From Halanaerobium saccharolyticum (lineage in GTDB: Bacteria > Bacillota > Halanaerobiia > Halanaerobiales > Halanaerobiaceae), in assembly GCF_004362045.1 (NCBI RefSeq), contig NZ_SNWX01000007.1, positions 1-64,000 of the forward strand: 64,000 nt of DNA. Direction: 5' to 3'. Position numbers and translations under genes: made by a program. Shown piece after piece: positions 15,858 to 59,276 of the stretch. Under the pieces are notes generated by a model. The model made no database searches, had not been told where the DNA came from, and saw only the letters and a list, made by a program, of their open reading frames with translations. Each line of letters starts with the position of its first letter. Position 1 is the stretch's first letter.

Positions 15858-17258
15858 TTAAGCTTCTTTCTTGTTATTTTTATTTAAAGGTAAAACTACA
15901 ATAAATTTTGTTCCTGCACCTGCTTCACTTTCTACATCAATATCTCCCTGATAATTATCAACAATCTGTTTTGCAATTGCAAGTCCCAGACCAGACCCTT
16001 TATTGGCTTTTCTTGTCCTTGATTTATCAGCCTGATAAAAACGATCAAAAACAAATGGCAAATCCTCACTGGAAATTCCCGGGCCATCATCTGTTACAGA
16101 AAAATAAAAGTTATCTGAATCAATTTTTTCAATTTTAATCTCAATTCTGCCTTTGTGGGAGGTGAATTTAATTGCATTATCCAGAAAAATACGCAGCAGC
16201 TGTTTGAATAAATTCTGATCCCCATAAAAATTGATTTCGTCTTTTTCTACAAATTCCAAATTTACTTCCTTTTCCATTATTTCAAATTCACTAATTATTT
16301 CATTGATCAAATTATTAAAATTAAACATCTCTTCTTCTCTTTTTAGTTCACTATCATCCCCGCGAGCTAAAAGTAGTAAATTTTCCATTAGCTGCTTCAT
16401 ATTAACTGTTTCTTTTTTTATAGCATCTATTGCCTCATCTCTAACATCTTTTTTTTCTTTACCCCAGCGATCAAGCAGATCAACATAACCTTTAATCACG
16501 GAAATAGGTGTCCTTAATTCATGAGAGGCATCAGATACAAACTGTTTCTGTCTTTTAAAAGACTTTTCCAGTCGGTCAAGCATTGAATTAAAAGTTAGAG
16601 CTAATTTTTTTAGTTCATCATCAGGTCCGCTAACTTCCAGTCTGCGGCCTAAATCACTGGAGCTTATTTCTCTTGCTGTTTCGGTAATTTTATTGATTGG
16701 GGACAGCATTTTTTTGGTAGTAAAATAGCCTAAAAAAACAGAAATCAAAGCTCCGATACCACCTGCCATGGTTAAAACTATGATTAAAAAATCAAGAAAG
16801 TTTTTTTCAAAGGTGATATCTCTGACTACCTGTAAATAACCTTTTGAAAAAACAAAATTATTCATTGGTATTGTTTTAACAGCAAGCCTCTTTGTCCCGG
16901 AACGAAATTCTTCAATTTCTGCACTAAATGGAATATCCATATCCTTTAAATATTTTGACTGAGCCTGTATTTTCCCATCTTTATTAAGCACTCTAAAAAA
17001 TATATTTTCTTCACTGCGGCTTATCTGCTGTAAAAGTTCTGTATCAAAAAAATTAACCGGATCTCCAATCCCTGAAGTTTGGGATAGCACTAACTCAATT
17101 GTATTATTGATACTCTTTTTGATATTATCATCAATAAAGTTGGAAAGAAAAAAATAAATTGATAGATTAACTAAAAAAATGAGCATCATAAACATAAAAG
17201 CATAAAGGATTGTAATTTTCCAGGAAATCTTGCTTTTTTTATTTACAAAATCAAACAT
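15858..17258 (-). CDS. Sensor histidine kinase
   Basis: This 466-aa membrane kinase pairs with the OmpR-type regulator next to it. It has an N-terminal transmembrane helix (about residues 15-38), an extracytoplasmic sensing part, a second helix (about 160-180) and a HAMP linker (TKKMLSPINKITETAREIS). The dimerisation domain carries the phospho-accepting histidine in FVSDASHELRTPISVIKGY. ATP-binding boxes are DNAIKFT, VTDDGPGIS and GSGLGLAIAKQIV. Its start overlaps the regulator stop by 8 bp. The signal is unknown. HtrA is the next gene upstream, which makes envelope stress a reasonable guess but no more. Confidence 0.95.
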   Translation of the reverse strand: MFDFVNKKSKISWKITILYAFMFMMLIFLVNLSIYFFLSNFIDDNIKKSINNTIELVLSQTSGIGDPVNFFDTELLQQISRSEENIFFRVLNKDGKIQAQSKYLKDMDIPFSAEIEEFRSGTKRLAVKTIPMNNFVFSKGYLQVVRDITFEKNFLDFLIIVLTMAGGIGALISVFLGYFTTKKMLSPINKITETAREISSSDLGRRLEVSGPDDELKKLALTFNSMLDRLEKSFKRQKQFVSDASHELRTPISVIKGYVDLLDRWGKEKKDVRDEAIDAIKKETVNMKQLMENLLLLARGDDSELKREEEMFNFNNLINEIISEFEIMEKEVNLEFVEKDEINFYGDQNLFKQLLRIFLDNAIKFTSHKGRIEIKIEKIDSDNFYFSVTDDGPGISSEDLPFVFDRFYQADKSRTRKANKGSGLGLAIAKQIVDNYQGDIDVESEAGAGTKFIVVLPLNKNNKKEA

Positions 17259-17949
17259 GCTTATCTGACCTCAGTACATAGCCTACACCACGCACTGTAT
17301 GTATTAATTTTTGCTCATAAGGGTCATCAATCTTACTGCGTAAATAACGAATATAAACATCGACAATATTTGTTTCTCCAGTATAATCATAACCCCAGAC
17401 ATTATTTAATAATTTATCTCTACTGACAACAATACCTTCATTTCGAATTAAATAAACTAAAAGGTCATACTCTTTTTTTGTTAATTCTATCTCTTCATCC
17501 GCCCGTTTAACAATATGAGCATCCAGATTAACCTCTACATCTGCAGTTTTTAAGATGTTATCTGATTCCACATTTCCTTTATCTCTTCTTAAATGAGCTC
17601 TTATTCTGGCCAGCAGCTCTTCTATTTCAAAAGGTTTGGTCAGATAATCATCTGCACCTGTATCCAGTCCTGTTACCTTATCTTCCAGATCAGATTTTGC
17701 AGTCAGCATAATTATTGGTATGTCCGAAAATTCTCTAATTCTACTGCAAACTTCAATCCCATTTAATCCCGGAAGCATAATATCTAATAATAATAAGTCA
17801 AAATTGTTTTCTTTTAAGGCATTAATTCCATCATAACCATTATCATATTTATCAATCTGATAACCCTCATGTTCAAGTTCTAATTCTACAAACCTTGCAA
17901 TTTGAGCATCATCTTCAATCAATAGTATTTGTTTGTCCAATTTACTCAC
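17251..17949 (-). CDS. OmpR/PhoB-family response regulator
   Basis: This 232-aa regulator has a receiver domain with the phosphorylated aspartate in LLLLDIMLPGLNG, threonine in MLTAKSD and lysine in DDYLTKPFE. It is followed by a winged-helix DNA-binding domain (ELTKKEYDLLVYLIRNEG, TNIVDVYIRYLRSKID, IHTVRGVGYVLR). The GTG at 17949 sits on top of its GAGGGG site, so a TTG nine bases downstream (17940) may be the true start. A TATAAT-like -10 lies just upstream. It overlaps the kinase gene by 8 bp. Confidence 0.95.
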   Translation of the reverse strand: MSKLDKQILLIEDDAQIARFVELELEHEGYQIDKYDNGYDGINALKENNFDLLLLDIMLPGLNGIEVCSRIREFSDIPIIMLTAKSDLEDKVTGLDTGADDYLTKPFEIEELLARIRAHLRRDKGNVESDNILKTADVEVNLDAHIVKRADEEIELTKKEYDLLVYLIRNEGIVVSRDKLLNNVWGYDYTGETNIVDVYIRYLRSKIDDPYEQKLIHTVRGVGYVLRSDKHV

Positions 17950-18092: not shown

Positions 18093-19241
18093 TTACTGTC
18101 TAATTTTATCGGGTTTATCACCAATACGTCCAAATATAATCTTAGATTGTCCATTTCTAATAACCTTAAACATAATCTTATCGCCTACTTCTTTATTTTT
18201 GATTATTTCACTAACATCAGAAGTTGATTTTATCTGTTTTTGGTCAATTTCTTTGATTATATCATAAGGTTTTAAACCAGCCTTATCAGCAGGACTACCC
18301 TTATAAACTTCTATAACTACAACACCATTTTGATTATCGAGAGAGAAATATTCTTGAACTTCTTTAGTTATTTCACTAAAGACAATTCCCAGCCATGGTC
18401 TGGTAACTTCACCTGTCTTTTGAAGTTCACTGACAATACCTTTAATTTCATTGATTGGAATTGCAAAACCGATTCCCTGTCCTACTTGAGAAACAGCAGT
18501 ATTGATCCCAATCACATTACCTTTAATATTGAGCAGTGGACCACCACTATTACCAGGATTAATAGCTGCATCAAGCTGAATTAAGTTTTGATAAGTTCTA
18601 ACCTGACGACTCTCAGTTGGAATCTGTATTGGGCGTCCTAAAGCACTTATTACACCAACTGTCACTGTGTGCTCAAAACCCAGAGGATTACCAATAGCAA
18701 TTGCCCATTCTCCAGGTCTTAACTTGCTGGAATCACCCATCTTTAAAGGGGATAGTTCCTGATTTATATTTTCAGTATTTACCTTTAAGATTGCCAGATC
18801 AAGACTAAAATCAGACCAGGCTACTTCTGCTTTCAGTGGTTCTTTTATTCCATTGATAGAAACTTCAATTTGATCAGCACCATCAATTACATGCTGATTA
18901 GTTACAATATATCCCTCTTTAGAAACTATAAACCCTGAACCAAAACCTTTTCTTTCTCGCGGCGGCTGTTCTGGTCCCTGAAAACGATCACCAAAGAAGA
19001 ATCTAAAATAAGGATCATTAAACATTTCCGGCAGCTGCTGGCTTCCAGATACTTTAATTGTAGAAGTAACCTTAACAACACCATCATTTGCCTTTTCAGC
19101 TATATCAGCAAAATGATTTGACATATAAAGTTTTTGTGAGTTCTGATTTTGAGCAATTACAGCTGGTGATACAGAAGCCATCAAAGAAATTACAATCAAA
19201 GCTAATAAAACCTTTTTAAAAAGATTATTTTTAATTTTCAT
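18093..19241 (-). CDS. htrA: HtrA/DegP-family serine protease with one PDZ domain
   Basis: This 382-aa protein has an N-terminal signal or anchor helix (NLFKKVLLALIVISLMASVS). The trypsin-like protease domain carries the catalytic histidine in IVTNQHVID, aspartate in FSLDLAILKV and serine in NPGNSGGPLL. A single C-terminal PDZ domain follows (GVVVIEVYKGSPADKAGL). It should degrade misfolded proteins outside the inner membrane. The start is ATG at 19241 with AAGGAAGG eight bases before it; a GTG at 19250 is too close to that site. The 215-bp region upstream holds an unusual nested inverted repeat (19273-19390). Confidence 0.95.
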   Translation of the reverse strand: MKIKNNLFKKVLLALIVISLMASVSPAVIAQNQNSQKLYMSNHFADIAEKANDGVVKVTSTIKVSGSQQLPEMFNDPYFRFFFGDRFQGPEQPPRERKGFGSGFIVSKEGYIVTNQHVIDGADQIEVSINGIKEPLKAEVAWSDFSLDLAILKVNTENINQELSPLKMGDSSKLRPGEWAIAIGNPLGFEHTVTVGVISALGRPIQIPTESRQVRTYQNLIQLDAAINPGNSGGPLLNIKGNVIGINTAVSQVGQGIGFAIPINEIKGIVSELQKTGEVTRPWLGIVFSEITKEVQEYFSLDNQNGVVVIEVYKGSPADKAGLKPYDIIKEIDQKQIKSTSDVSEIIKNKEVGDKIMFKVIRNGQSKIIFGRIGDKPDKIRQ

Positions 19242-19272
19242 GATTAACACCTTCCTTTTTTAGTATGATCAA

Positions 19273-19390
19273 ATAAAACAGTTAACTGGTACTTATTCTT
19301 CTCTCCAGCGCTGTAGGGAAATACCAGAGAGAATATAATCTTAAGGAGGAAATTTCATTCTGCTTTTATTTAAACTTTTAACTGTTTTAT
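19273..19390. repeat. Nested inverted-repeat element between gpmA and htrA
   Basis: Outer arms ATAAAACAGTTAA (19273-19285) and TTAACTGTTTTAT (19378-19390) match over 13 bp with 92 bases between them. Inside are CTGGTA (19286-19291) against TACCAG (19322-19327), and a near-palindrome of 22 bases at 19299-19320 centred on CAGCGCTG with two mismatches. A TTCTCTC/GAGAGAA pairing competes with the inner stems. An AAGGAGGA stretch at 19343-19350 on the plus strand is not followed by a start codon. It could be the htrA leader, a small RNA or a protein-binding region. Confidence 0.5.
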
Positions 19391-19456
19391 CTTACAATAG
19401 AAATATAACAAAGAGAAATTAAAGAATAATTAAGCAAAAATTAAATTTAGATTAAA

Positions 19457-20200
19457 TTACTTTTTTGCCTGATTTTTTACTTTCTTCATTTCTTTTTCTA
19501 TTTCCTCCTGATCACCAAGATAATACTTATCTTTAACATTCATCTCCAGATCAAACTTATAAACTAAAGGCCTTCCTGTCGGGATATTTAAAGAAGAAAT
19601 ATCCTCATCTGAAATTCCATCAAGATGTTTAACCAGTGCTCGCAAACTATTGCCGTGAGCTGAAATAATTATTTTTTTTCCCTTTTTCATCTCTGGTACA
19701 ATTTCATTTTTCCAGTAAGGCATTACTCTATCAATTGTCATTTTTAAACTTTCTGCAGTTGGCAGTTCCTCTTCACTAAGCTCTGCATATTTTTCTTCAT
19801 GACCCGGATAACGTTCATCATCTTTATCTAATTCAGGTGGTGGGGTATCAAAACTGCGGCGCCAGATATGCACCTGTTCTTCCCCCTCTTTCTCAGCAGT
19901 CTCAGCTTTATTTAATCCCTGTAAGGCCCCATAATGTCTTTCATTTAATTTCCAGGATTTAATTACTGGAATCCAGTGCAGATCCATAATATCCAGAATT
20001 ATATTTAACGTTTTAGTTGCTCTTTTTAAATATGAAGTATAGGCCAGATCAAATCTAAACCCCTCTTCATTTAATAGTCTACCTGCTTCTTCTGCTTCTT
20101 TAACTCCCTGTTCACTTAAATCAACATCTGTCCAGCCTGTAAACCTGTTAGCTAAATTCCATTCACTCTCTCCGTGTCTGACCAGTACAATTTTCATCAA
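19457..20200 (-). CDS. gpmA: 2,3-bisphosphoglycerate-dependent phosphoglycerate mutase
   Basis: This 247-aa glycolytic enzyme interconverts 3- and 2-phosphoglycerate. The phosphohistidine motif is [11 protein letters not shown] (H in RHG), followed by the cofactor-dependent family's [29 protein letters not shown] and the second catalytic histidine in [18 protein letters not shown]. Length fits the dimeric/tetrameric dPGM class. It stands between addA and htrA with gaps of more than 100 bp on both sides, so it is probably transcribed alone. Confidence 0.97.
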
Positions 20201-30798: not shown

Positions 30799-30815
30799 AA
30801 AAATCCTCCTTTAGT

Positions 30816-30856
30816 GGTACCGGGTACTTGGAAATAATTTCCAAGTACCCGGTACC
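30816..30856. repeat. GGTACC palindromic repeat, complete 41-bp copy (pyrF-pyrK spacer)
   Basis: GGTACCGGGTACTTGGAAAT (30816-30835) is followed, after one base, by its exact reverse complement. It begins 6 bp past the pyrF stop and ends 18 bp before the pyrK start, so it is transcribed inside the operon and would form a 20-bp RNA stem. Confidence 0.97.
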
Positions 30857-30862
30857 AGAACA

Positions 30863-35293: not shown

Positions 35294-35386
35294 TTTATAC
35301 CTCCTGGATGTTATAAAATTATTGAAAAACTTTTGTCAAATTCCCTCATTAAAAAATAATAAAATTCATTTAGACATTAAAAAACT

Positions 35387-35414
35387 CCCTACCAGCGAAC
35401 TGATAAGGAGTTTA
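35387..35414 (-). terminator. Intrinsic terminator of the uraA attenuator
   Basis: On the minus strand AAACTCC and GGAGTTT (plus positions 35392-35398 and 35407-35413) form the stem, followed by TTTTTT. It is the expression platform of the PyrR site just upstream. Confidence 0.9.
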
Positions 35415-35478
35415 GACTCATTTTGCATTCTCTACCTCAACTGACAGTGGTAGAGTTCTGCTAAGTAAATTCCTTACC

Positions 35479-35492
35479 GGCCTCTCTGGACC
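35479..35492 (-). promoter_or_regulatory. PyrR-binding loop, attenuator before uraA
   Basis: The minus strand reads GGTCCAGAGAGGCC, matching the PyrR anti-antiterminator consensus (A/G-U-C-C-N-G-N-G-A-G-G-Y). It is preceded by TTTAAATT and followed by the terminator at 35387-35414. UMP-bound PyrR should hold this hairpin and allow termination. Confidence 0.93.
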
Positions 35493-35525
35493 AATTTAAA
35501 GGATCTTTTATTAAATTATTTAAAC

Positions 35526-36156
<631 letters not shown>

Positions 36157-36180
36157 CTAAAATTTATATTTTCCCTTACT

Positions 36181-36194
36181 AGCCTCTCTGGACT
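36181..36194 (-). promoter_or_regulatory. PyrR-binding loop, attenuator before pyrR
   Basis: The minus strand reads AGTCCAGAGAGGCT, a full consensus match. It is followed by GTAAGG and the terminator at 36126-36156, in the same arrangement as the sites before uraA and carA. Confidence 0.93.
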
Positions 36195-36285
36195 AATTTA
36201 AAGAATCATTATTTATTTGAATTAATTTTATCAGAGTATAAATTTTAAGTCAAGGGTTTATTTTTGTTTTAGGCAGCATATTTTA

Positions 36286-36322
36286 GGTACCGGGTACAAA
36301 AATGATTTTTGTACCCGGTACC
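36286..36322. repeat. GGTACC palindromic repeat, complete 37-bp variant
   Basis: GGTACCGGGTACAAAAAT (36286-36303), one G, then its exact reverse complement. The outer 12 bp equal those of the 41-bp copies; the inner part differs on both sides in step, so the symmetry has been kept. Confidence 0.95.
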
Positions 36323-36337
36323 AATAAATTATTATAT

Positions 36338-36364
36338 GGAAAATAAATCCAAGTGCCCGGTACC
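36338..36364. repeat. GGTACC palindromic repeat, half copy after carB
   Basis: GGAAAATAAATCCAAGTGCC followed by CGGTACC resembles the centre and right arm of the 41-bp element with three changes. It lies 5 bp past the carB stop codon and 15 bp from the 37-bp copy. Confidence 0.8.
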
Positions 36365-36369
36365 TAATA

Positions 36370-39300
36370 TTACTTTTGATAATCCTGAAGTGCTTTATAC
36401 TCTATTCTCTCACCATGTTCAATTTCCTTTAAAACTTTGAGCATAGCATGAGTGGTATCCAGAGAAGTTAAACAGGGAATTCCCATTTCTACAGCTGACC
36501 TTCTGATTTTAAAGCCATCTCTTTCCGGAACCTTTCCTTTAGTTAAAGTATTGATTACCAGATCAACTTGATCATCAGCAATCATCTCCAGTGAATCAGG
36601 TGAGCCCTCTCCTATCTTTTTAACAATATCAACTTCCAGCCCCTCTTCTTTTAAAGCTGCTGCTGTTCCCTCAGTGGCAGCAATTTTAAAACCGAGTTCT
36701 GCAAAGTCTTTAATATAACTTACTGCTTCTTCCTTATCTTTATCGGCAATTGTAGCCAGAATTGTACCAGCTCGGGGAATTTCAAGTCCAGCTCCAATTA
36801 ATCCTTTATAGAGGGCCTTTTCATAACTCTCAGCAAGCCCAAGAACCTCACCTGTTGATTTCATCTCCGGTCCCAGATTGGTATCTACCTGAGTTAATTT
36901 AGAGAAGGAAAAAACAGGCACCTTAACTGCTACATGCTCTTTTTCAGGAACCATTCCACTTTCCCAACCTAAATCTTTTAATTTGCGACCGAGTAAAGCT
37001 TTTGTTGCCAGATCAACCATTGGTACTCCTGTTACTTTACTGAGATAAGGAATTGTCCGGCTGGAGCGGGGATTAACTTCAATGACAAAAATTTCTCCCT
37101 CGCTGACCACATACTGAATATTGACAACACCTTTGACATTTAGGGCCCTCGAAATTCTTTCGGTATATTCCACCGCTTTTTCTTTCAACTCTTCCGAAAG
37201 ACGATGTGGGGGATAAACCGCTATACTGTCTCCCGAATGAACACCTGCTCGCTCTACATGCTCCATAATTCCAGGCACGATAACTGTTTCTCCATCAGAA
37301 ATTGCATCTATCTCAATCTCAGTCCCGGTTAAATATTTATCGACCAGTACCGGTCTGTCAGGTGATACTTTAACAGCATTTTTCATATATTCTTCTAATT
37401 CTTCTTTATTATATACAACTTCCATTGCTCGACCTCCAAGTACATACGAAGGTCTAACAAGTACTGGATAACCAATCCCAGCTGCAATTTTTTCTGCTTC
37501 CGCAAGTGAAGCGGCAACTTCTCCAGCCGGAACAGGTATCTCAAGTTCATTTAAAAGTCCAATAAATCTATCCCTATCTTCTGCAAGGTCAATGGAGTCA
37601 ACTGAAGTTCCTAAAATTTCTACTCCTGCTTCTGCCAGCGGCTCTGCTAAATTAACGGCAGTCTGACCACCAAACTGACAGATTACACCTTCAGGTTTCT
37701 CATTCTCAATAATATGCATAATATCCTCTTTTGTCAGGGGTTCAAAGTATAATCTATCTGAGGTATCAAAATCTGTACTCACAGTTTCTGGATTATTATT
37801 AACAATAATCGACTCATAACCTTCTTCGTTTAAGGTCCAGGCAGAATGAACACTGCAGTAATCAAATTCTATCCCCTGGCCAATTCTAATTGGACCTGAA
37901 CCAATAACCATAACTTTTTTCTTATCTGTTGGTTCAGCCTCATTAACCTTCTCGTAGGAAGAATAATAGTACGGTGTTTCTGCTTCAAATTCTGCCGCAC
38001 AGGTATCCACCATTTTAAAAACTGGTTTAAGCTGCAGCTGATCTCTAATAGATTTTATTTCTGCTTCAGTTCTTTCAGTTAAAAGAGCAATCTCCGAATC
38101 CGAAAATCCTTTTTCCTTAGACTCCAGCAGAAGTTCTCTACTTTCATTTATCTTATCTTTATTTGCTGCCAGCGAGTTTTCTAGCTCGATAATATTTTTT
38201 ATTTTGTGTAAAAAGAAAGTACTAATCTCAGTGAACTGATGGACTTTCTCAACTGTCCAACCACGACGAAGCGCTTCAGCAATCACAAATAATCTATTAT
38301 CATCTGCTGCAAATAAATCTTCTTCAATCTCCTGATCACTCATTTTTCTAAATTCTTCTAAATAAAAGCCATAACGTCCGATTTCCAGTGAACGCACCGC
38401 CTTAAGCATTGAAGCTTCCAGATTTCTTTCGATAGCCATTACTTCTCCGGTCGCCTTCATCTGAGTTCCAAGATCACGATCTGCATAATGGAATTTATCA
38501 AAAGGCCAGCGAGGAATCTTAAAAACTACATAATCTAAGGCCGGTTCAAAACAGGCCGTAGTTTTACCCGTAATCGCATTTTCTATCTCATCTAGAGTGT
38601 AACCCAGGGCAATCCGGGCTGAAACTTTAGCAATCGGATATCCTGTTGCTTTGGAAGCCAGAGCACTGGAACGACTGACTCGAGGATTTACCTCAATTAT
38701 ATAATACTGAAAACTCTCTGGATCCAGGGCATACTGAACATTACAGCCTCCCTCGATCCCCAGGGCTCTAATTATCTTTAAGGCAGAGCTTCTAAACATC
38801 TGATATTCTTTATCTGTCAGAGTCTGGCTGGGAGCTACTACAATACTATCTCCAGTGTGAACTCCAACCGGATCAAAGTTTTCCATGTTGCAGACAACTA
38901 TACAGTTATCATTTTTGTCCCGCATTACTTCATATTCTATTTCCTTCCAGCCTTTAATACTTTTCTCTATTAAAACCTGTCCGATTAGACTGTGTTTAAA
39001 ACCACGGGCGGTAATCTCTTTTAATTCCTCTAAATTATCAGCAACTCCACCACCGGTTCCCCCCATTGTATAGGCCGGACGCACAATAACAGGATAACCA
39101 ATTCCTGCTGCAATTTTTTTTGCCTGATCAATATTTTCCGCAATTTTGCTGTCTAAAATTGGTTCTCCTATTTCATTCATTAATTCCTTAAAATTATTTC
39201 TATCTTCTGCCTTCTCAATTGTATCAATTGGAGTTCCTAAAAGCTCTACATTCAAATCTTTTAAAATATTTGTTTCTGCTAAATCTATTGCTAGATTTAG

Positions 39301-40857: not shown

Positions 40858-40902
40858 ATAAAAATAAAACCCTCGCCCCAGAAAGAATGGTTTGAAGGTT
40901 AA
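40858..40902 (-). terminator. Intrinsic terminator of the carA attenuator
   Basis: On the minus strand AACCTTC pairs with GAGGGTT (plus 40894-40900 and 40868-40874), with one G-U pair, followed by TTATTTTTAT. Confidence 0.82.
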
Positions 40903-40957
40903 AATTGATATAGTTAGACTATAAAATCTAAATATAGCTATACCTGTATACCTTTAC

Positions 40958-40973
40958 CAGCCTCTCTGGACTG
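40958..40973 (-). promoter_or_regulatory. PyrR-binding loop, attenuator before carA
   Basis: The minus strand reads CAGTCCAGAGAGGCTG with a short flanking stem. It is the third copy of this signal and controls carAB. The region between carA and hydA (40737-41117) otherwise holds only the terminator stem and AT-rich sequence. Confidence 0.93.
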
Positions 40974-41117
40974 ATTTAAAAGGAAATTATATTCTTTTAT
41001 TATTGTTGTATAGTTTACCATTTAAAAATTAAACTGTCAATAGAGAAGCTAAGATTAAGAAAATTAATTATTTTAGATTAATTAATACTTAATTTAACAG
41101 CATTTTCTTAATTTTAA

Positions 41118-46890: not shown

Positions 46891-46916
46891 AGTAATCTCT
46901 CCTTTCTTGGTACCTT

Positions 46917-46957
46917 GGTACCGGGTACTTGGAAATTATTTCCAAGTACCCGGTACC
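46917..46957. repeat. GGTACC palindromic repeat, complete 41-bp copy (antiporter leader)
   Basis: It equals the reverse complement of the copy at 30816-30856, base for base. An extra GGTACCTT unit precedes it at 46909-46916. Confidence 0.97.
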
Positions 46958-46966
46958 ATAAACCAT

Positions 46967-47011
46967 AAAAAAAACTCCTATCTAGATAGGGTAATCCTAA
47001 ATAGATAGGAG
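46967..47011 (-). terminator. Strong terminator downstream of the aminotransferase gene
   Basis: CTCCTATCTA (46975-46984) pairs with TAGATAGGAG (47002-47011). On the minus strand eight Ts follow. A second, weaker hairpin (GGGGA/TCCCC, 47044-47059) lies right at the aminotransferase stop codon. Confidence 0.9.
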
Positions 47012-47059
47012 CCATCAACTGTCATTTCCTCCAGTAGTTAAAAGGGGAGCTCCATCCCC

Positions 47060-48196
47060 TTAATTCATTTCATTTACGAATATCTTATGTAAATCTACAT
47101 TTAGATCAAAACCAAGTTCTCGCAAGCTGTGATCAAAAGCCTTTAAAGTGCGATATAATTTTTCTTCATAACAATTTTCTCCCATATGGCCAATTCTGAT
47201 TAATTTATCTTCAAATTCTCCCAGTGAGGCTGCAATCATCACATTATGGCTTTCTGTCATCAGCTGATTTAACTCCTGATAAGTTATACCCTCCGGTATT
47301 ACTATTGCAGTAACTGTATCAGAATGACCATTTTCGGAATATAAATTAAGATTGGATTGTTTTATTGCTTCTCTGACAGCCGCAGCAATTTTACTGTGGC
47401 GCTCAAAAACCTCTTTATCTGCCAGCCATTTATCCAGAGCCGCATCTAGAGCATAAATATCACTTACTGCCTGAGTATAAGGGAAATATTTTTCTTCATA
47501 CCAGTTCTGCCAGAGCTGTAAATTGGTATAATAACCCCTGACAGCAGTTTTTCTATTATTTACCGCTTCCCAGGCCGCATCACTGACGCTCATAAAAGTC
47601 AGTCCCGGCGGAACCGAAAGACATTTTTGAGAACCTCCAAGAATTATATCAATTCCCCATTTATCTACCTCTATCGGCACACCACCAATTGCAGAAACAG
47701 AATCTACAACGGATAAAATATTATATTTATTTAATAAATTAGTGATCTCTTCAGCATTATTTATTACCCCAGTTGGAGTTTCACAGTGAACAAAGGTAGC
47801 AAATTTAAAATCGTTTTCTGCTGCCAGCTTTGATTTCAATTTATCTATATCAATCTCTTTATCATATGGGAATTCCCATCTTATAACATCTGCTCCATAA
47901 AGATCAGCAAAATCAGCGAATCCTCTCCCGAAGATTCCATTATCTAAGACTAAAACCCTATCTCCTGGCTCGATTAAGGAAGCACAGGCAGATTCCAGTC
48001 CTAAAATCCCCTCCCCACTCATAATAATCACATCATTTTTTGTTCTCATTACCTGCTGCAATTTTGAACTTACATCCAGGTAAAAATCAAAAAATTCAGG
48101 ATCAAGATCAGGGTTGGTAATTTTGCGACTCATTGCCCGTCTAACTTCTTCGCTAACCTCAGTTGGACCGGGTGTCATTATTAGTAAATCACTCAC
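47060..48196 (-). CDS. Class-V aminotransferase (serine-pyruvate / alanine-glyoxylate type)
   Basis: This PLP enzyme of about 378 aa begins LIMTPGPTEVSEEVRRAM, the usual N-terminus of the alanine-glyoxylate/serine-pyruvate group. The PLP lysine is in LGGSQKCLSVPPG. VVDSVSAIGGVPIEVDKWGI holds the cofactor aspartate, and HCETPTGVIN is typical. The start is a GTG at 48196, seven bases after GGGAG. It has its own promoter and a double terminator, so it is a single-gene unit. The exact amino donor and acceptor (glyoxylate, pyruvate or ureidoglycine) cannot be told. Confidence 0.9.
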   Translation of the reverse strand: MSDLLIMTPGPTEVSEEVRRAMSRKITNPDLDPEFFDFYLDVSSKLQQVMRTKNDVIIMSGEGILGLESACASLIEPGDRVLVLDNGIFGRGFADFADLYGADVIRWEFPYDKEIDIDKLKSKLAAENDFKFATFVHCETPTGVINNAEEITNLLNKYNILSVVDSVSAIGGVPIEVDKWGIDIILGGSQKCLSVPPGLTFMSVSDAAWEAVNNRKTAVRGYYTNLQLWQNWYEEKYFPYTQAVSDIYALDAALDKWLADKEVFERHSKIAAAVREAIKQSNLNLYSENGHSDTVTAIVIPEGITYQELNQLMTESHNVMIAASLGEFEDKLIRIGHMGENCYEEKLYRTLKAFDHSLRELGFDLNVDLHKIFVNEMN

Positions 48197-52527: not shown

Positions 52528-52612
52528 AAGGTGGCAGTCGGGCAATCATAGCTCTCAAGCCTTAGACCCCTTAACTTTGCGTCACTGTTTTTCAACAATT
52601 TTGCCTTTTATA
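52528..52612 (-). ncRNA. c-di-GMP-I (GEMM) riboswitch before the FapA-like gene
   Basis: The minus strand has the order of the GEMM-I aptamer: GGCAAAAT, CAGTGACGCAAAG, then GGGTCTAAGGCTTGAGAGC, TATGATTGCC and GACTGCCACC closing P1. GTGACGCAAAG and GGGTCTAAGGC are near-exact consensus pieces. No clear terminator follows before the start codon, so control may act on translation. Confidence 0.93.
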
Positions 52613-52762
52613 TACTCTAATATTTATATTCTTGATTAGCACTCATTATCCTTTATTTTAACAGAAGCCCTAAATCATTTTTATAGTGTTTAATCAGGCA
52701 AAGTTGGATAGTTTATATTATGTATCCTCACAAAAACTTCATAATATTTGTTAGCTATAATC

Positions 52763-59088: not shown

Positions 59089-59164
59089 CGTTAATCTCTG
59101 CAGCCTGGCAGTCTCAGTAAGACCCATAGCTTTGCGTCACTGCTTTACAGCAGTTTTGCCCTTA
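59086..59164 (-). ncRNA. c-di-GMP-I (GEMM) riboswitch before the GGDEF/EAL gene
   Basis: The minus strand has GGGCAAAACTGC, CAGTGACGCAAAGC, ATGGGTCTTACTGAGAC, TGCCAGGCTGCAG and AACGCCC, the GEMM-I order with P1 formed by GGGC/GCCC. GTGACGCAAAGC is an exact consensus piece. A TATAAT -10 box lies at 59188-59193 upstream, so the aptamer sits at the very start of the transcript. Confidence 0.92.
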
Positions 59165-59276
59165 ATTCAATATATTTTCTTTTAGTAATTATATTGTACT
59201 AAAGCTAAGACTATAATTCAAGTTATTTGATTAACAAATTTTGTTTTAATTTCTTGTTATTTCAAAGTGACAGCAC

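Follow-up and report, generated by a model that had tools for sequence, protein, structure and literature searches.

The 64,000-nucleotide stretch of Halanaerobium saccharolyticum DNA analyzed here, referred to as the window, belongs to the genome designated G000; the other G numbers designate genomes of relatives. The element at positions 19273 to 19390 is surrounded by the following features.

19457–20200, minus strand: gpmA, the upstream gene (NF010713, 414.6 bits for a cut-off of 305).
19250–19257, minus strand: ribosome-binding site of htrA, AAGGAAGG, recognized by its sequence.
18093–19241, minus strand: htrA, encoding a protease with Trypsin_2 and PDZ domains, with an ATG start codon at 19239–19241.
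17251–17949, minus strand: gene for a response regulator of the OmpR family, identified by sequence comparison.
15858–17258, minus strand: gene for a histidine kinase with HAMP, HisKA, and HATPase domains.

Since gpmA, htrA, and the response regulator and kinase genes are all located on the minus strand, the element lies upstream from htrA and on the htrA sense strand. HtrA was named from its Trypsin_2 and PDZ domains because NCBIfam scores were below the cut-offs. The nearest solved relatives of the response regulator by sequence were MtrA, PhoP, and RegX3, which are of the mycobacterial type according to their labels. No gpmA or htrA match was obtained in G001 at the thresholds used.

All of the repeats, the stems, and the near-palindrome named in the original prediction, as well as the plus-strand AAGGAGGA, were confirmed position by position. 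The outer arms, ATAAAACAGTTAA (19273–19285) and TTAACTGTTTTAT (19378–19390), are complementary at 13 of 13 positions. Between them lie an inner stem, CTGGTA (19286–19291)/TACCAG (19322–19327), a near-palindrome of 22 bases (19299–19320), and a competing stem, TTCTCTC (19299–19305)/GAGAGAA (19327–19333). As the two flanking genes are encoded on the minus strand, the htrA leader carries UCCUCCUU, of which AAGGAGGA (plus strand, 19343–19350) is the antisense. A perfect outer repeat of 13 bp is uncommon for the gpmA-htrA spacer: when the spacer (19242–19456) was dinucleotide-shuffled 5000 times, 22 shuffles contained a perfect inverted repeat of this length with a gap not exceeding 130. The whole window holds four perfect 13-bp inverted repeats, for an average of 0.23 and a maximum of 2 in 30 shuffles. 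The remaining three are part of a dispersed, unrelated palindrome around GGTACCGGGTAC(TTGGAAAT), which looks REP- or MITE-like and has 12 matches in the window for 0.01 expected (26910, 27953, 30815–30857, 36281–36370, 39637, and 46916–46958). Half-sites of this palindrome with at most two mismatches number 38 in its own genome, 23 in G003, 17 in G009, 10 in G002, and one each in G004 and G008; the other eight family genomes contain none.

Two features just upstream from the element were not mentioned in the original prediction.

19413–19456, minus strand: direct repeats TTTAAT, TTTAAT, CTTAAT, and TTTAAT at an exact spacing of 11 bp (hexamers at 19418–19456), a putative operator for a response regulator of the OmpR/PhoB family.
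19402–19407, minus strand: −10-like hexamer TATATT, with a transcription start predicted at about 19392–19395.

The repeat array of G000 scored 24 matches out of 24 (maximum of 19 in shuffles) and provides the tandem 11-bp direct repeats upstream from a −10 sequence that define an OmpR/PhoB-type operator. It is likely to be such an operator, to which a response regulator would bind, and the htrA promoter is likely to be under two-component control. This promoter has no −35-like hexamer and was missed by the promoter scan. The operator-promoter block follows the gpmA stop codon and precedes the element, and 48 of its 55 columns are invariant in seven species. It was found in all 12 gpmA-htrA spacers and also upstream from htrA in G012, in which no gpmA was found adjoining, indicating that the repeats belong to htrA rather than to the end of gpmA. 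Together with gene order and strand, the conservation of this block supports the reading of the element as the htrA leader, which was one of the possibilities raised in the original prediction.

The htrA site had zero or one mismatch in 13 of the 14 family genomes and, in each of those 13, ranked first or joint first among the listed sites. Other operator-type sites with one mismatch were present in G005, G011, G001, and G013. Total numbers of operator sites exceeded those of a reversed-pattern control in most family genomes, the exceptions being G006, G012, and G013. In the order, 30 htrA loci were examined out of 43 htrA matches, in a survey in which some stretches were short and the shuffles were single-base; 20 of these loci scored at least 21 out of 24. 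Such scores were observed for 15 of 15 loci with a response regulator gene seen in the fetched stretch and for 5 of 15 loci without one (Fisher p = 0.0002, uncorrected for relatedness). Related repeats of the TTTAAT/TTTAAAG type were additionally observed in G000 at C2:60607–60645 (L173) and at L164, L169, and L176. As judged from translations only, those of L173 are near a gene resembling that of an ABC substrate-binding protein, and the other three are near DtxR-family-like regulators with FeoB-like neighbours.

Since the transcription start is placed approximately 7 nucleotides after the −10 hexamer, the element would be nearly the whole 5′ leader of htrA. From 5′ to 3′, this leader contains the following features.

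19378–19390, minus strand: distal 5′ arm of stem P1, AUAAAACAGUUAA, identified by the repeat and the duplex test.
19360–19371, minus strand: proximal and weaker 5′ arm, AAAUAAAAGCAG, which could compete for the same 3′ arm (−6.6 versus −11.9 kcal/mol).
19340–19361, minus strand: conserved stretch AGAAUGAAAUUUCCUCCUUAAG, with CCUCCUU at 19343–19349, identified by comparison of relatives.
19299–19333, minus strand: predicted P2 hairpin, with arms at 19323–19333 and 19299–19309.
19273–19285, minus strand: 3′ arm of P1, UUAACUGUUUUAU, identified by the repeat and the duplex test.

Seven of the 12 gpmA-htrA spacers harbor a long leader, the distance from the −10 hexamer to the start codon being 160 nt in G000, 148 in G003, 154 in G002, 204 in G009, 206 in G005, 213 in G004, and 145 in G007. 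The distance is 100 nt in G011. The leaders of G013 (79 nt), G010 (50 nt), and G006 (50 nt) are short, and G008 (24 nt) has none. A MAFFT alignment revealed a core, AAA..AGA...AAATT, common to the seven long leaders; in a separate anchoring of these leaders, which used a pattern from the core stretch, invariance is partly by construction. The core, located 97 to 161 nt past the gpmA stop codon in the seven species, is followed by CCTCC in five of them and by CCTTTTTT in G003 and ATTTTATT in G007. In a tree of the HtrA, response regulator, and GpmA proteins, the seven long-leader species and G008 formed one group (support of 97). G008 was placed inside this group (supports of 54 and 79), and loss of the leader in this species is therefore likely, with weak support. 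Searching the 14 family genomes with a leader pattern yielded eight matches, including the htrA leaders of G000, G009, G005, and G004; the pattern was too strict, as it missed those of G002, G003, and G007. One of the remaining matches falls in a CRISPR array of G003, and for the other three (G004, G009, and G012), no frame longer than 80 codons was listed as starting in the 400 bases downstream. A CRISPR-like array with the repeat GTCAAAAGACTAAATCCACTACAACAAGGATTGAAAC was observed at L145 (G003 contig 14).

The conserved stretch contains AUGAAAUUUCCUCCUUAA (MKFPP followed by a stop codon), which raised the possibility of a leader-peptide attenuator based on ribosome stalling at Pro-Pro-stop. 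The sequence AAA TTY CCT CCT plus a stop codon is indeed readable in G000, G009, G005, and G004. However, the start position is occupied by ATG in G000, by TTG in G003 and G002, and by none of ATG, GTG, or TTG in G009, G005, G004, and G007. In addition, G002 has no stop codon at this place, and no ribosome site precedes the ATG. The leader peptide was rejected because its start codon is not kept across the long leaders; this explanation is largely refuted and almost certainly wrong.

The 118-nt segment folded better than shuffled sequences on both strands (z of −2.56 on the plus strand and −2.97 on the minus strand), with the caveat that its ends were defined by the repeat itself. The best minus-strand fold contains the TTCTCTC/GAGAGAA pairing, extended to 11 bp by G-U pairs, and the best plus-strand fold contains CTGGTA/TACCAG. 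For the G000 leader, from the predicted transcription start to the start codon, z was only −1.61, 13 of 200 shuffles being equally good, and a 226-nt sequence including the promoter gave −0.08. Whole-leader values were −1.6 for G000, −2.3 for G003, −1.8 for G002, −2.9 for G009, −2.7 for G005, and −4.2 for G004, and −0.8 for G007, −1.2 for G011, 0.6 for G013, 0.2 for G010, and −0.2 for G006. P1 was evaluated as the best duplex between the sequence upstream from the motif and the sequence before the ribosome site, in species that are not independent. P1 was better than in shuffles for five of the eight leaders (G000, p = 0.017; G003, 0.015; G009, 0.021; G002, 0.002; G004, 0.020) and no better for G005 (p = 0.34), G007 (0.57), and G011 (0.11).

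In the leaders of G009, G005, and G004, all 63 of the P1 and P2 cells are standard pairs, for 41 to 56% in slid versions. One pair is changed on both sides in these leaders, and their covariation score was reached by 162 of 500 shuffles. The outer stem of G000, G003, and G002, the arms of which were chosen by eye, displays one two-sided change, one one-sided change, and one broken terminal pair in G002. Two-sided covariation is therefore present at two pairs in total across both leader sets. Thus, of the conservation and covariation that the original prediction had called for, the motif and the stem arrangement are kept in several relatives and the covariation of the stems is slight. RNAalifold, applied to MAFFT alignments of eight, six, and three leaders, returned a usable shared P1 only for the three leaders of the G009 type. 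A covariance model built from these three leaders (R1; G009, G005, and G004) was used to search 38 genomes. The G000 and G002 leaders were the best matches in their own genomes (rough E values of 0.014 and 0.019), the alignment to G000 using the second, proximal 5′ arm. Genome-wide, the model missed the leaders of G003 and G007, and no htrA-locus match was obtained in the 38 genomes beyond the three training leaders, G000, and G002. A match to the opposite strand of the G005 leader (E of 0.009) was as good as that of G000, because the hairpin is self-complementary. Other matches, with E values up to 0.019 (G035, on a contig other than that of htrA), were taken as chance.

The four one-sided changes, three in leaders of the G009 type and one in those of the G000 type, all produce G-U on the htrA-sense strand and would be A-C on the other strand. 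Although only four, these changes speak for an RNA read in the htrA sense rather than for an antisense RNA or a palindrome in the DNA. They bear on an alternative in which the inverted repeat, which is present in the DNA, acts as a DNA site (operator or cruciform), derives from a mobile miniature element, or specifies an antisense or small RNA transcribed from the plus strand. Insertion of a mobile element would also account for the absence in G008. However, the element gave a single full match in its own genome, all other matches being short and weak, and a mobile or dispersed repeat was rejected on this basis. The confined position of the motif after the gpmA stop codon in seven species also argues against these alternatives. 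The small RNA proposed in the original prediction was not supported, since scans were at or below the level of shuffles, with no terminator-like site and one promoter-like site for 1.3 in shuffles. We consider this set of alternatives quite improbable.

The contribution of P1 to the accessibility of the ribosome-binding site was modeled by blocking its 5′ arm in full leaders. The openness of the site decreased from 0.71 to 0.33 in G000, 0.59 to 0.20 in G003, 0.80 to 0.46 in G002, and 0.80 to 0.31 in G007, reaching or passing the lowest control block in each case. The effect was thus clear in four of seven modeled leaders. The decrease was small in G005 (0.57 to 0.43, for a lowest control of 0.45) and negligible in G009 and G004, and the start codon became more open in G003 and G004. 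In G000, the predicted fold lacking the distal arm (−24.1 versus −29.8 kcal/mol) has CCUCCUU paired over its full seven bases with AAGG-A-AGG. The leaders paired with the Shine-Dalgarno sequence no more strongly than their shuffled versions did (p of 0.12 to 0.90 for the nine leaders compared, two others being too short), and anti-Shine-Dalgarno pairing was not retained as the main proof since it is at chance level.

The original prediction had proposed a temperature sensor, and an RNA thermometer would be in keeping with the nature of htrA as a stress gene. In models run without salt terms, the openness of the ribosome site of G000 was 0.70, 0.71, 0.77, and 0.87 at 20, 37, 50, and 60°C, respectively; it barely moved up to 50°C and showed no step. 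The G007 leader was more sensor-like, its Shine-Dalgarno sequence having an openness of 0.49 at 20°C and of 0.80 at 37°C, whereas the openness decreased with temperature in G004. The Shine-Dalgarno sequence also lies outside P1. A temperature sensor was not supported for G000, and a thermometer appears very unlikely, although the G007 model leaves one conceivable elsewhere in the genus. Closing of the ribosome site by heat was likewise not borne out by these models.

The best explanation, on which our judgment is evenly divided, is that the element is the htrA mRNA leader, with P1 as an insulating stem and masking by the leader as a possible off state. The four 11-bp TTTAAT repeats would be bound by a response regulator, the most likely candidate being the product of the gene that follows htrA, and the promoter would thereby be switched on; the transcript would begin a few bases before the outer arm. 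We infer that the arm at the 5′ end of the leader pairs with bases located 92 nt further on, forming P1, which would close a domain comprising the conserved CCUCCUU stretch and the P2 hairpin. In the modeled folds, closed P1 would keep leader segments off the htrA ribosome-binding site, and it may also protect the 5′ end of the mRNA. Without P1, the leader could cover the ribosome site (in G000, through pairing of CCUCCUU with the site), which would lower translation. The best reading is that of an accessory leader acting on translation or stability, which may tune the amount of HtrA protease, rather than of a new class.

Alternatively, the leader could be a passive transcribed spacer, the terminal stem of which at most slows mRNA decay and has no role in translation control. 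The modest whole-leader fold of G000, the chance-level pairing with the Shine-Dalgarno sequence, and the missing or short leaders of G008 and three other species are consistent with this possibility. The presence of a near-invariant stretch within fast-changing sequence in seven species and the maintenance of P1 with different arms argue against it, and we retain it as a tentative explanation. A further possibility, which we regard as unlikely, is that of a two-state switch in which the CUGUUUU 3′ arm is contested by two 5′ arms, the distal UAAAACAG and the proximal AAAA(G)CAG, the outcome deciding whether the htrA site is masked. The arms involved are present in G000, G003, and G002. The choice between the two 5′ arms would be made while the leader is being transcribed or be imposed by a factor that binds the conserved AGANNGAAAUU loop. 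If true, this would define, in halophilic anaerobes, a new class of envelope-stress riboregulator acting on top of a promoter under two-component control.

Leaders that control translation through competition between an anti-Shine-Dalgarno strand and another stem form a general class. The accessory leader considered here resembles this class in that CCUCCUU is paired with the Shine-Dalgarno sequence in the modeled G000 fold without P1 and is not in the fold with P1. In contrast to this class, no aptamer was recognized, CCUCC is absent in G007, and it is not the partner of the Shine-Dalgarno sequence in the G003 and G002 duplexes.

With respect to the promoter, the accessible parts of the reports on known systems describe control of HtrA-family genes by the two-component systems CutRS and CssRS in Streptomyces (PMC12802291) and of an HtrA-family protease by CssRS in Bacillus (PMC4812647). 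As in these systems, an HtrA-family protease would be controlled here by a two-component system of the OmpR type. The CutR site described in the accessible part of PMC12802291 is a single TAWATAAA, whereas four TTTAAT units are present here at 11-bp spacing, and the leader is predicted to be structured, in contrast to the CssRS and CutRS descriptions, the accessible parts of which contain no such leader. PhoB-type regulators bind tandem 11-nt direct-repeat units, the PHO box, according to the accessible part of PMC4415409; the units found here share this arrangement and differ in sequence and in the gene concerned, htrA.

An unexplained inverted repeat thus becomes a testable control region. 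Conservation of the operator ahead of htrA across several families within the order points to the regulator of htrA in halophilic anaerobes. The leader RNA has so far been found in one genus, one species of which lacks it. Nature thus provides a comparison, between species that carry the leader and species that do not, of what such a leader contributes when an envelope protease is under two-component control.

At their gathering scores, the Rfam covariance models did not match the region, the best sub-threshold E values (3.6 and 8.2) being far below these scores, in agreement with the original prediction, which had recognized no known riboswitch. A search of mostly open-access literature found no paper on the Halanaerobium htrA leader. 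Elsewhere, the window contains three PyrR sites along with a fluoride riboswitch and two riboswitches of the c-di-GMP-I type (35376–35506, 36120–36208, 40860–40987, 46999–47068, 52530–52615, and 59095–59169).
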